39,017 bases of DNA, from positions 1 through 39,017 of the forward strand of contig CANQDG010000017.1 in assembly GCA_947591495.1 (NCBI GenBank), in the 5' to 3' direction. Positions 33,315 to 38,913 of this stretch are shown one piece after another. Under the pieces are notes generated by a model that made no database searches, was not told the DNA's origin, and saw nothing but the letters and a program-made list of their open reading frames with translations. Origin of the DNA: an uncultured Bacilli bacterium. Lineage in GTDB: Bacteria; Bacillota_I; Bacilli_A; ML615J-28; CAG-313. A program made the position numbers and the translations under genes. Position 1 is the first letter of the stretch. Every line of letters begins with the position of its first letter.

Positions 33315-35072
33315 ATGTTAAACATTAGAAAAAGATTTTTCATATTATTAACTATTGTTGGCTTATTATTCGGTTTAGCTGCATGTACAAAAAGCGCTGA
33401 TTTCTTAAAGTTATCATTTGATAATGATACTTATGAAATACTTGTTGGCCAAACCATAAATTTAGAGCCAATGGTTAGCAAAGGATCTAGTGTTGGTGAT
33501 GTTCAAATTGAATATACATCATACGATGATTCAATCGCAACTTATTCTGATGGCTTGTTAACAGGTGTAGAGGTTGGTGAAACTACTATTAAAGTTGTTT
33601 GCCCCGACAAACCTGTTGCATATGATACTGCAACCGTTAAAGTAATTTTAACTAGACTTCCTGAAGTATCATTTAGTATTCCTACAGCTTATAATATGGT
33701 AAAAGGTGCAACAAAAGAATTAACTTATACTTTTGTCCCTGATTATGCTAATGCTGTAGTTACATTCCAATCTGCCAATCGAGATGTTGCAACAATAGAT
33801 GAAAGTGGTTTAATTACTGCTGTTGGGGTAGGTGAAGCAATCATAGTCGCTCGCGTTTCTGAACCTGAAACAAATGCTGATGCTGAACATCGCGATTATG
33901 TATTTACTATTACAGTAGTTGAATCAGATTTCACTATTAACTATAACTTAGATGGTGGTACAAATAATCCAGATAACCCTGCTGGATATAATGTATTAAA
34001 TTTACCATTAGAATTAAAAGAACCTACAAAAGAAGGTTATGAATTCTTAGGTTGGTATTTGAATGCTGATTTTGAAGGTGAAGCCATTGAAGAATTATCA
34101 ACAGATACTTATGGTAATGTTGATTTATGGGCAAAATGGAAACAAATAGATTTCAAAATCACATATCATCATAATGGTGGTAGTTGGTATGATAGACCTC
34201 TTCCATACAGTTTGGATCGCCAAGCAATGGTAGATGACTTCTTAAAGGATGCAATGGAAAAATATGGCGTAACTGTAAAACCTGATAATACAGCTAATAA
34301 TCCTGATGATACAGGCTTTGCAAATAAATTTAGTGCCATTTATGGAATTTTCACAGATGAAAAATATGCTGCAAAATGGTCTTGGTTAAAAGATTATTTA
34401 ATAAGTGTATCAAAATATAAAACTGAACTAGAAAAAGGTACAGGTGGGGAAACTTTTTGGCGATACACAATTGGAGCATTCTTATTCCAAGAACACTATA
34501 CCGCTTATCCTAATACAGATGACTTTACAAATGAAGATTTAGCAGATGGTTTCTGGGATAAATTATTAGAAGCTAATGGCATTGAATTAGTAACAGTAAA
34601 AGATACTTATCGTAATGATGAAGAATTTGTATTACCTAAATCTAAACGCCCTGGTGCTACTTTTAAAGGTTGGTACTTAAATGGTGAAAAGATTGAAAAA
34701 ATTGAAACTGGTTCAAAAGGTGATATCGTTTTAGAAGCTGAGTGGGAATTATTAGAATATGATATCACTTATGATTTAAATGGTGGCGATGACGATAAAT
34801 ATCTATATGGTCATAATCGTCAAGCAATGGTAGATGATTTCTTAAAAGACTTTAATGCTTATCTTACTGAAAATAAAAAGGCAACCCTTGCTGATGTTAC
34901 GGCGTTCTTCGGAAATACATATGTAACTGGTGGAAATATTGGTTATGATTTCTTAGTTAAAAGTAAATATAGCAGTAAATGGACATGGCTTTTTGAATAT
35001 ATTAGTTCTGTAAGTAAAACACCTCTAGTAGAAGGATCAGGTGATCAATCTCATATGAGAGGTGATACATAA
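33315..35072 (+). CDS. Giant surface lipoprotein, N-terminal part (frameshifted)
   Basis: The signal peptide ends L-A-A-C, with lipid Cys24. Two Ig-like Big_2 domains follow at about 28-200 (S-V-G-D-V-Q-I-E-Y-T-S-Y-D; A-T-I-D-E-S-G-L-I-T-A-V-G-V-G-E-A). InlB beta-grasp repeats begin near residue 212 (Y-N-L-D-G-G ... E-F-L-G-W-Y-L-N ... L-W-A-K-W). Two of the repeats contain an inserted domain of about 125 residues (Q-A-M-V-D-D-F-L-K-D ... K-W-S-W-L ... F-W-D-K-L-L) that I do not recognise. The frame ends at TAA 35070 in the middle of the second inserted domain, whose remainder (V-A-D-G-F-W-D-K-L-L) continues in the +1 frame. One original gene is therefore split, by mutation or by sequence error. 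Confidence 0.8.
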   Translation: MLNIRKRFFILLTIVGLLFGLAACTKSADFLKLSFDNDTYEILVGQTINLEPMVSKGSSVGDVQIEYTSYDDSIATYSDGLLTGVEVGETTIKVVCPDKPVAYDTATVKVILTRLPEVSFSIPTAYNMVKGATKELTYTFVPDYANAVVTFQSANRDVATIDESGLITAVGVGEAIIVARVSEPETNADAEHRDYVFTITVVESDFTINYNLDGGTNNPDNPAGYNVLNLPLELKEPTKEGYEFLGWYLNADFEGEAIEELSTDTYGNVDLWAKWKQIDFKITYHHNGGSWYDRPLPYSLDRQAMVDDFLKDAMEKYGVTVKPDNTANNPDDTGFANKFSAIYGIFTDEKYAAKWSWLKDYLISVSKYKTELEKGTGGETFWRYTIGAFLFQEHYTAYPNTDDFTNEDLADGFWDKLLEANGIELVTVKDTYRNDEEFVLPKSKRPGATFKGWYLNGEKIEKIETGSKGDIVLEAEWELLEYDITYDLNGGDDDKYLYGHNRQAMVDDFLKDFNAYLTENKKATLADVTAFFGNTYVTGGNIGYDFLVKSKYSSKWTWLFEYISSVSKTPLVEGSGDQSHMRGDT

Positions 35073-38000
35073 TTTCTTAAATGCTTGTAAACCAGGTGAA
35101 AAGGGTGGAAATTCAAGTTTTGGTAGTGATTACTCAGATCCAAAAGTAGCAGATGGTTTCTGGGATAAATTATTAAAAGCAGATTATGCTGATACTAGAG
35201 TTAAGAAATTTAATATTGAAACAGAAGTAGAATTATATACACCTACTAAATATCAATGTGAATTCTTAGGTTGGCTTTTAAATGGCGAATTAGTTCATAA
35301 GCTTGAAAAGAATACTGTTGGTAATGTTACTCTTGTTGCAAAATGGTATGATCCAAATGCAACATTTGATATTGATTATCAACTTGCAGATGGAACACTT
35401 GATCCTAATGCGCCTAAGACATTTGTTGCTAAAGATGGTCTTGCTACTTTACCAACACCAACTAAAGTTGGATATAAATTCTTAGGTTGGTATAAAGAAG
35501 ATACATTAAAGACTAAAGTTGAAAGTATTGAAACCCGCCGCACAGAAGGTATAACTTTATATGCATCTTGGGAAATGATTACATATAGTATTGATTATGA
35601 ATTACATGGTGGTACATTTGTAACGGATAAAGTAGTTTCATTATATGAATCATTTGATGAATTAGTTCAAGCATTCTTAACTGATTATTCTACATTTAAT
35701 AATTTAACAGGCGTAACAGCTGAAACATTCTATGGTAAATCTAGTCAACGTGGTTTATATTCATTCTTCAAGAACGAAGAAATGGCTACTAAATGGAATT
35801 GGTTATTAGATTTTGTAGTTGCTAAAGCTGAAGAAGTAAGATACACTGGTAAAGCTTATTTGAAACTTACAGCTGGTGCTGCTAACTTCAATAAATATGC
35901 AAGAGCAAACTTTGCTGCATTATTACAACAAACACAATTAAAGAACCCTGTATCAATGGATTTTACAGATGTAGATGGTGATGCACTTTGGGCTGTATGT
36001 CCTACAAAACTTGTTCCTGCTGAAATCGAAGCTAAAAAAAGTTATACAGTAAATGATTTACCATTAAAACTTGCAAAACCAGTTAGAGATGATGCAACAT
36101 TTGTTGGTTGGTATACTAATGAAGACCTTAAGAATGGTAGAGTTGATGAAATAACAACTGAAAATATTAATAATTTCAAATTATATGCTAGATGGTCTGA
36201 TTCAGAAATTGAATTTGACACATACACAATCACATATGATCCTCAAGGTGGCGTAATTGATCAAGATTCTCCAGAACAATATGTTGAAGAAACTGGTGTA
36301 AAATTAAAAGGTGCAACTAAGAAAGGTTATACTTTTGCTGGATGGTATTTAAAAGGTACTGAAACATTAGTTACTGAATTAACTAAAGAAGACAAAGGTA
36401 ATAAAGAGTTAGTTGCTAAATGGACTTTAGTAGAATATGAAATTGAGTATGTACCAGGTGAAGGAAAACTTGAAAAAGAAGAAATAAAGATAAGTGGTTA
36501 TGAAAACTATGAAGAATTAAAAGCTGATTTCTTAGAAGATATAATAACATATGTTCGTCGTTTCATACCTTTTAAGCAGGATATAGATCATTATAGTGGT
36601 GGAGATACTGACCACGCATGGGCAAACGTTGTATACCCATCAGCCACATATAATTTTACTAATATAGCTTTATTCTTTGATGATGATGCATATAAAGCAA
36701 AATGGTCTTGGTTAAAAGCATATATCATTTCAAGTGCTGACCCTGCTCTTAAGGCATTGCTTGAAGCAACGGATGCAAACGGTGTTCCAACTGAAAGTAC
36801 ATGGAGATGGGTAATGGGTGCCTTTATCTTTAAAGAAAAGATTCAAAATGTAAATAATGCAACTGATTATACAGATGGAACTATTATGAATGGTTGCTTA
36901 GATCTTGTTAAACCTGAATATAAAGTTGAACCTGATGTATATGATGTTGAACATTTACCAAAAGAATTATTAATTCCTAATGCTCCAGAAGGTAAGAAAT
37001 TCGTTGGTTGGTATACTACTGAAACATTTGATGGTGATCCATGGTATGAAATTCCTGCTGATAAAGCAGAAAACTTAAAGTTATATGCTAAATATATCGA
37101 TGCAGCTGAAGAAGAAAAATATCGTATTGTATATGTTTTAGGTGATGGTGCAAGTCTTGTTGAAACAGCTCCTAAAGAATATGTAAGAGGTACAGGTTTA
37201 GATTTATCAACTGTTATACCTACAAAAGAACATTATGACTTCAAGGGTTGGTTCTTAGATGCTAAATTTGAACAAACAATTACAGCTATATCAGCTGAAC
37301 AATATGGTGTAATTACCTTATATGCTAAATTCGAATTACAAAAGTTTGAAATTGAGTTTAATAGTAATGGTGAAGTTAAAAAAGAAACTTTAGAATATGG
37401 TGCTAAACTTCCAGATGCCGAAAATGGTGAATATGGCTATAAGTTTGCAGGATGGTTCGAAGATGAATCTTGTGAAACTGAAGTTAAAACAACTGTTACA
37501 GGCGCAATGAAACTTTACGCAAAATGGGAAACAACTCCTACATATAATGAAATTGAATATGTATTAGCAGAAGGCGAATTCTTAATTGCTGGTGAATGGA
37601 CAAAATATGACTATTGGACAGGTTTAGTATTACCAGTTGCACTTAAGAAAAACAATAAATTAGTTGGTTGGTCTTTAGAAGCAAATGGCAATAGTCCAAT
37701 TACTAAAATTGAAGCTTTACAAAAACAAAAATATGTTTTATATCCTGTTTGGGAAGAAGTTGAATATGATTGGGTAATCCATGGTAATGCAAAATTATCT
37801 GATGTATTATCACATGTTGCAGCATCAGAAAAAATCTATTTCTATCCAGGAACATATGAAGATAAGGATGTTACTATTTCTGTTAATGGTCTTACAATTT
37901 TAGGACCTAACGCTGGTAAAAACCCTAACACTGCTGTTCGTGATGAAGAAGCTGTTTTAAAATTTGTAATTAAACTTGGTAAAAATATTGATGGTTTAAC

Positions 38001-38913
38001 TATTGATGGTTTAGAATTTACTGGTCGTTCAAGAGTTGAAACTGTTAGTGGTGCTGATAAGATTGTGTTTAAAAATAATAATGTTCATGATATTACAGCA
38101 ACTCCTGATGAAATGAAAAATAAAGGACTAGATAAAGATAATACAGAATATGGTTATAAACCTACTAATCGTGTAAGACAACTTGCTTTCTTAATGATGT
38201 ATGAAGAAGAAAAGACAGGTAACGATTTAATAAAGGATATAACCGTTCAAGATAATAAATTTGTTAATTTACCAGGTGATGTTATGGAATTCTCACGTCA
38301 TGCTGATGGCAAACAAATTTTAATAGATGGTAATGTTATGAAAAATTTCAAAGCTGAAGCAATTCGTTTTGATGGCGGTTATAACAATGGTAATGTCGTT
38401 ATTACTAATAATACGATTGAAAATGATACTTTACAAAGTGGTGCTGGTATTCTATTTAGAGCATATTGTGCAACTAAAGGTAAAAAACAAAATATTACTG
38501 TCCAACATAATACCTTCAAAAATATTGGTGATGTAGAAGAAAATCAACAATTTAATGAATATATCGCTGCTATCGCATTTGATACATACAATGATCATAA
38601 TGTAACAATTGATATTTCTTATAATACTTTTGAAGATTGTAATAGAGGTATATTCGTTAGAACACTTAAATTTACAGGTGATGGTTCTCCAGATTGGATT
38701 GGTACATTTAATTACAACTATTTTAAAGGTATGTTAACTGAATGTTATCGTGAAGCTGATAAATTCGGTATTGCAAAACATAATTATTGCGAAGATGCTG
38801 AAGGAACTCCAATTACAGAAGCTGATGCTCTAGCAAAACAATTTGTTAACGCTAAAACTGCTGATGAATTCTATAATACAAAAGATGAATATTTAGCAGG
38901 TATCCAAGCTTAA
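35062..38913 (+). CDS. Giant surface protein, C-terminal part (frameshifted continuation)
   Basis: This frame completes the protein begun at 33315. It has no signal peptide and only a chance AGAGG ahead of GTG 35062; the frame opens at 35059, just after TGA 35056. It contains the end of inserted-domain copy 2 and two more copies (about 35641-36006 and 36497-36915). Many InlB repeats (G-Y-K-F-L-G-W-Y, G-Y-T-F-A-G-W-Y, L-Y-A-K-W) continue to about residue 905. The last 375 residues form a right-handed beta-helix with N-rich rungs (V-F-K-N-N-N-V-H-D-I; V-I-T-N-N-T-I-E-N; V-Q-H-N-T-F-K-N-I), as in pectate-lyase-like or NosD-like folds. No sortase motif or membrane anchor is seen, so surface attachment depends on the N-terminal lipid. 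Glycan or host-surface binding is inference. Confidence 0.78.
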   Translation: MIHNFLNACKPGEKGGNSSFGSDYSDPKVADGFWDKLLKADYADTRVKKFNIETEVELYTPTKYQCEFLGWLLNGELVHKLEKNTVGNVTLVAKWYDPNATFDIDYQLADGTLDPNAPKTFVAKDGLATLPTPTKVGYKFLGWYKEDTLKTKVESIETRRTEGITLYASWEMITYSIDYELHGGTFVTDKVVSLYESFDELVQAFLTDYSTFNNLTGVTAETFYGKSSQRGLYSFFKNEEMATKWNWLLDFVVAKAEEVRYTGKAYLKLTAGAANFNKYARANFAALLQQTQLKNPVSMDFTDVDGDALWAVCPTKLVPAEIEAKKSYTVNDLPLKLAKPVRDDATFVGWYTNEDLKNGRVDEITTENINNFKLYARWSDSEIEFDTYTITYDPQGGVIDQDSPEQYVEETGVKLKGATKKGYTFAGWYLKGTETLVTELTKEDKGNKELVAKWTLVEYEIEYVPGEGKLEKEEIKISGYENYEELKADFLEDIITYVRRFIPFKQDIDHYSGGDTDHAWANVVYPSATYNFTNIALFFDDDAYKAKWSWLKAYIISSADPALKALLEATDANGVPTESTWRWVMGAFIFKEKIQNVNNATDYTDGTIMNGCLDLVKPEYKVEPDVYDVEHLPKELLIPNAPEGKKFVGWYTTETFDGDPWYEIPADKAENLKLYAKYIDAAEEEKYRIVYVLGDGASLVETAPKEYVRGTGLDLSTVIPTKEHYDFKGWFLDAKFEQTITAISAEQYGVITLYAKFELQKFEIEFNSNGEVKKETLEYGAKLPDAENGEYGYKFAGWFEDESCETEVKTTVTGAMKLYAKWETTPTYNEIEYVLAEGEFLIAGEWTKYDYWTGLVLPVALKKNNKLVGWSLEANGNSPITKIEALQKQKYVLYPVWEEVEYDWVIHGNAKLSDVLSHVAASEKIYFYPGTYEDKDVTISVNGLTILGPNAGKNPNTAVRDEEAVLKFVIKLGKNIDGLTIDGLEFTGRSRVETVSGADKIVFKNNNVHDITATPDEMKNKGLDKDNTEYGYKPTNRVRQLAFLMMYEEEKTGNDLIKDITVQDNKFVNLPGDVMEFSRHADGKQILIDGNVMKNFKAEAIRFDGGYNNGNVVITNNTIENDTLQSGAGILFRAYCATKGKKQNITVQHNTFKNIGDVEENQQFNEYIAAIAFDTYNDHNVTIDISYNTFEDCNRGIFVRTLKFTGDGSPDWIGTFNYNYFKGMLTECYREADKFGIAKHNYCEDAEGTPITEADALAKQFVNAKTADEFYNTKDEYLAGIQA

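Follow-up and report, generated by a model that had tools for sequence, protein, structure and literature searches.

Four inserts in the InlB-type repeats of a lipoprotein gene were identified as members of a helical domain family that had not been catalogued before. The domain has about 105-140 residues and is here called the KWxWL domain. This assignment is well supported, and so is the conclusion that the KWxWL domain represents a genuine and mobile family that folds independently and is nested in InlB repeats. The gene lies in the window, which is the whole stretch of DNA that was analysed (39,017 nucleotides) and the entire contig C17 within a 1.51 Mb genome. Judged from its placement in protein sequences, the KWxWL domain is a mobile module that occurs mostly inside InlB repeats and also in tandem or elsewhere. 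The family is absent from the public libraries searched, has no detectable solved fold, and occurs in a common class of gut surface protein. For its function, we give slightly less than an even chance to the reading that the domain would be a mobile accessory on the InlB platform that binds walls or surfaces and holds its parent protein at the substrate. The window protein would then be a multivalent binding lipoprotein.

The lipoprotein gene and its four inserts

The features of the lipoprotein gene are shown in Table 1. The genes upstream of it were named from sequence as grpE, dnaK, and dnaJ. In the window gene as in its relatives, the lipobox signal peptide was read by eye.

Table 1. Features of the lipoprotein gene, with positions in the window.
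Feature	Position	Strand	Basis
Lipoprotein signal peptide with lipobox (MLNIRKRFFILLTIVGLLFGLAAC)	33315..33386	+	By eye from translation; identical start in L074 and L077
Lipoprotein gene, part 1: Big_2-like domains, one plain InlB repeat, copy 1, start of copy 2	33315..35072	+	ORF list; Flg_new 1.4e-21, Big_2 5.4e-12
InlB (Flg_new) repeat hosting copy 1, interrupted after strand 1	34152..34745	+	Flg_new positions 1-64 after excision, E 5.6e-8; AlphaFold2 strands flank the insert
Helical insert copy 1	34218..34577	+	Sequence and profile search; AlphaFold2 helices
InlB repeat hosting copy 2, spans the frame break	34761..35346	+	Two-frame alignment to L074 residues 305-566
Helical insert copy 2, frame break at about 35050-35072	34818..35184	+	Profile match with one internal stop; intact in relatives
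Lipoprotein gene, part 2: remainder of copy 2, copies 3 and 4, plain InlB repeats, beta-helix-like C-terminus	35062..38913	+	Flg_new 1.2e-61, 7 stretches; 39% to L074 residues 675-1865
InlB repeat hosting copy 3	35584..36195	+	Flg_new 1-64 after excision, E 1.2e-10
Helical insert copy 3	35656..36006	+	Profile; AlphaFold2 alone pLDDT 94.5, pTM 0.88
InlB repeat hosting copy 4	36436..37095	+	Flg_new 1-65 after excision, E 7e-7; 45-50% identity to equivalent repeat of relatives
Helical insert copy 4, apparently swapped for a copy-1-type insert	36511..36912	+	Profile; tree support 0.994; identity comparison

An earlier note on this DNA had described four related segments in InlB repeats, located after strand 1 and before the GWY part, and all four were recovered where it had placed them, each with a length of about 120 residues. 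The motifs that it had listed were also recovered. The acidic F-L-x-D start reads DDFLKD, DDFLKD, QAFLTD, and ADFLED in copies 1 to 4, and the central K-W-x-W-L reads KWSWL, KWTWL, KWNWL, and KWSWL in the same order. The W-R-x-x-x-G-A-F motif attributed to two copies was located in copy 1 (FWRYTIGAF) and copy 4 (TWRWVMGAF). Copy 1, used as a single query sequence against the genome, retrieved copy 4 (E 3e-11), copy 2 (7e-8), and copy 3 (7e-5). A profile of 19 inserts, which was built with the four window copies among its sequences, matched those copies at 1e-38 to 3e-19. The E-values and the size of the family rule out chance or low-complexity similarity of the inserts.

The gene is interrupted by a frame break inside copy 2, where the ORF at 33315-35072 ends and the ORF at 35062-38913 resumes in a different frame. 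The relatives have a single open frame through the equivalent site. The break may be biological or an assembly error. The C-terminal region of the second ORF has the look of a right-handed beta-helix, judged by eye only, and the Pfam scan of that region gave zero matches. Right after the gene, repeated AAAGTTTTTTGGGGA-like stretches occupy the end of the contig (38945-39017), which may act as a terminator or be a repeat at which the assembly broke off.

The window protein aligns to residues 1-1865 of its relative L074 and ends short of the part of L074 that bears an amidase. Another relative, L077, which matches a 2872-residue frame in genome G002, comes from a metagenome-assembled genome (MAG) labelled Anaeroplasma bactoclasticum that belongs to the same genus as the window organism. 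The window organism is considered Anaeroplasma-like because its same-genus relatives include this MAG, with the label taken as given.

Fold, nesting, and apparent exchange of the inserts

The insert had been proposed to be helical and different from its host fold, and this is what the AlphaFold2 models show, where a separate helical domain is predicted and not a part of the beta-grasp. The model of copy 1 with its host repeat (pLDDT 87) places the helices between strand 1 and the other strands. Copy 3 modelled alone is compact and helical throughout (pLDDT 94.5, pTM 0.88). The insert as a part of the InlB beta-grasp was thus ruled out by the helical models, including that of the insert folded alone. 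Copy 1 and its host were also searched as one model against the PDB with Foldseek. The seven best matches, which are the only credible ones, are InlB B-repeats. They have a probability of up to 0.99, an E of about 0.1, and TM values that are low across the full query. By the same comparison the host repeat has a beta-grasp fold like that of PDB 2y5p, with a weak E.

The proposal that the insert belongs to no named family also stood. The Pfam, NCBIfam, and PHROG profiles gave no match to the insert, and when 19 inserts were compared with them the best E-values were 0.02-0.3, each in 1 of 19 inserts and inconsistent between inserts. A known Pfam, NCBIfam, or PHROG family was therefore rejected. 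The insert alone had no match in the PDB by Foldseek (best E 8.2) or by sequence search (best E 1.1), nor in BFVD by Foldseek. An absence of known fold here means no match in PDB and BFVD. A description of the KWxWL domain was not found in the literature searched.

Copies 1, 3, and 4 were excised in silico, and the rejoined host repeats match Flg_new (PF09479) from position 1 to 64-65 with 33.2, 41.8, and 29.7 bits, respectively, where the curated cut-off is 27. These excised hosts are thus InlB B-repeats by the Flg_new profile. Simple and therefore rough patterns were applied to the 59 distinct copies that have sufficient flank, and a strand-1-like motif was found before the insert in 38 copies and an F-x-G-W motif after it in 42 copies. 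Among the other copies, some are hosted by diverged repeats, some form tandem pairs (L052/L143), and some belong to a BspA-type leucine-rich repeat protein (L036/L147). It could be argued that the inserts are diverged loops of the InlB beta-grasp that are alike by chance or low complexity. Their position within the repeat is all that speaks for this explanation, and its probability is close to nil, given the E-values between copies of down to 3e-11, the helical prediction for the insert folded alone, and the presence of the domain outside InlB repeats.

When the inserts of the window gene were placed in a tree with those of its relatives, copies 1, 2, and 3 clustered with the inserts at equivalent positions in the relatives. 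Copy 4 falls instead among the copy-1-type inserts (support 0.994), although its host repeat has 45-50% identity to its counterpart in the relatives. The copy 4 insert itself has 17-20% identity to the relatives' insert at the same position and 39% identity to copy-1-type inserts, and the inserts of two relatives at the copy 4 position are 69% identical to one another. A conserved host repeat with a divergent insert looks like an exchange of inserts within a repeat that was kept. The copy 4 insert was apparently swapped for a copy-1-type insert, as read from this single case on a long branch of the tree.

Distribution and enzyme partners

The profile of 19 sequences identified the domain in 29 of the order's 43 genomes and in 37 of the 395 genomes sampled from the class, with members in other Bacilli families as well. 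The domain was also found in 15 of the 392 genomes sampled from the phylum, all of them from the same class. A phage or plasmid origin was rejected since relatives were not found in viral contigs (one query), phages, or plasmids. A MAG with the label Gammaproteobacteria contains a close relative of copy 1 (L076) on a 3.8 kb contig that is probably misbinned.

Two further groups of proteins were observed. The first group consists of conserved proteins of about 420 residues that have no signal peptide (L059:2584-3840, L060:2865-4142, L061:2248-3504, L062:2577-3818, and L064:2048-3301). A helical domain is nested in each of their two InlB-like repeats, and the one in the first repeat looks like a different type. 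An OsmC-like gene adjoins them in L059 and L062, with an aminopeptidase-like gene nearby. The second group consists of secreted proteins of about 1000 residues (L067, L096, L097, L100, L111, L113, and L122) that have a common N-terminal region (DPTL..E..PMYIMDSI) and one insert each, with no InlB repeat recognised. The tail of L067 is hydrophobic and basic and resembles a membrane anchor, and the Pfam scan of this one member gave no family above the cut-off.

About 149 unique copies were compared, and four residues are near-invariant, namely D (97%), K (98%), and the two W of W-x-W (95% and 96%). This conservation and the cytosol-like members of about 420 residues with two nested domains would fit a small enzyme, or a regulator that binds peptides, with the D and K as its functional residues. 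Such a function is nevertheless very improbable, given that no constellation of other near-invariant polar residues was found across these copies and that Foldseek gave no match to an enzyme fold in PDB and BFVD.

Amidase_2 was found in five insert hosts by Pfam (E 1e-9 to 1e-15), including L074 (3168 aa) and L077 (2872 aa). A local model detected it in 34 of the 99 insert-bearing open frames, a set that includes some fragments and a few near-identical sequences, and the amidase is always downstream of the insert. The gap between insert and amidase is 258-277 residues in 28 of these 34 proteins, across several families, and within the 28 the median identity is 32% among inserts and 40% among amidases. 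This fixed spacing could have been inherited from one ancestral gene. The other 65 open frames are fragments or carry LRR_5, lamin-tail, Big_2, or nothing recognised. Four other insert hosts have an N-terminal GHL10 domain and the insert near the C-terminus. The GHL10 domain of Cwp19 has been shown to have lytic transglycosylase activity (PMC6016235).

The fixed distance to the amidase could also mean that the insert is a rigid helical knob without a ligand, which sets the spacing or packing of neighbouring InlB repeats. The insert is usually attached to repeat or stalk modules, and its invariant residues (D, K, and W-x-W) could belong to the core or form salt bridges. We regard this structural explanation as quite unlikely, since inserts also occur in tandem and outside InlB repeats and the apparent exchange of copy 4 within a kept host repeat would be uncalled for in a mere spacer.

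Both ORFs of the window protein lack Amidase_2, and none of the four insert-host ORFs in its genome has an amidase. A continuation of the window gene into an amidase beyond the contig end was not supported, as the frame stops at 38913 and the amidase ORFs of the genome have no recognised insert. Across the order, Amidase_2 is present in 40 of the 43 genomes with up to 18 matches each, including genomes where neither penicillin-binding protein (PBP) nor Mur ligase was detected.

A window protein without amidase and with a beta-helix-like end fits an adhesion domain, as the earlier note had suggested, here for ligands from the host or its diet such as mucin, plant glycans, or epithelial proteins, where the linkage to wall enzymes would be secondary. 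The organisms come from gut or rumen, the lipoprotein anchor with Big_2 and InlB repeats is typical of surface proteins, and some insert hosts have LRR_5 or lamin-tail domains. This explanation deserves to be kept in mind, but we consider it somewhat unlikely because the fixed Amidase_2 spacing in 28 proteins and the GHL10 hosts are more easily explained by the handling of bacterial walls. Taken as a whole, the family looks more like an accessory module of surface proteins, peptidoglycan-cutting ones among them, than like a host-cell adhesin.

Proposed role and known systems

The KWxWL domain is often joined to wall-cutting enzymes, hence it probably helps such proteins to hold bacterial surfaces. 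From the partners, their fixed spacing, and the multiple copies, we infer binding to walls or surfaces as well as the ligand and the biological role. In the proposed mechanism, the InlB-type beta-grasp repeat would be the rigid platform of a secreted or lipid-anchored protein, and the KWxWL domain nests most often in the loop after strand 1 of that repeat. The domain would bind a bacterial wall or surface component and thereby keep its parent protein, in many relatives a peptidoglycan amidase or lytic transglycosylase, at the substrate. The window protein would act as a multivalent, membrane-anchored binding lipoprotein that has no amidase of its own. The members of about 420 residues are a poor fit to a surface role because they have no signal peptide.

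PBP transpeptidase and Mur ligase matches were found in the genome of the window and in most of its family. The window organism is thus probably walled, and a wall-less window organism was rejected on the basis of these matches. This pattern is consistent with the report that 40-60% of Anaeroplasmataceae genomes retain peptidoglycan genes (PMC10868615). Neither PBP transpeptidase nor Mur ligase was found in 11 genomes with insert-amidase ORFs (G010, G016, G021, G023, G026, G041, G084, G123, G129, G305, and G371), one of which, G129, is a single 1.5 Mb contig. In these genomes the substrate is likely foreign peptidoglycan, and the insert-amidase enzymes of the 11 genomes probably act on other bacteria. 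The name of Anaeroplasma bactoclasticum derives from the lysis of bacteria.

A broader reading, which we consider unlikely, is that this new fold family provides exchangeable recognition cassettes on the InlB platform, with which mollicute-related gut bacteria, including wall-less ones, would aim the amidases and lytic transglycosylases that they secrete at other bacteria's walls. The domain family itself would explain how InlB repeats, for the most part regarded as simple stalks, can bear functional modules that are exchangeable. It also gives a testable molecular link to a possible attack by wall-less bacteria on walled neighbours, a link drawn from the insert-amidase proteins in genomes without detected peptidoglycan synthesis genes.

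Among known systems, the InlB B-repeat (Flg_new, PF09479; TIGR02543; PDB 2y5p) is the same as the host repeat around each insert. However, known InlB repeats have about 65-70 residues without a nested domain, and the helical insert has no counterpart there. Many related hosts end in Amidase_2 (PF01510) behind Big_2 domains, as in multidomain wall amidases, and in this they resemble autolysins, or bacteriolytic amidases that carry accessory modules for binding. The window protein differs from these in having no amidase, and the insert belongs to no known wall-binding family. GHL10 (PF02638) is joined to accessory modules both in the insert hosts and in Cwp19, where these are the wall-binding CWB2 modules (PMC6016235). 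The insert differs from the latter in matching no CWB2 or other Pfam profile, and its hosts come from another class. LysM, SH3b, CWB2, PG_binding_1, and similar domains are non-catalytic accessory modules on wall enzymes. Although the insert sequence matches none of these Pfam wall-binding modules and membership among them is not supported, they work like the role that is proposed here for the insert.
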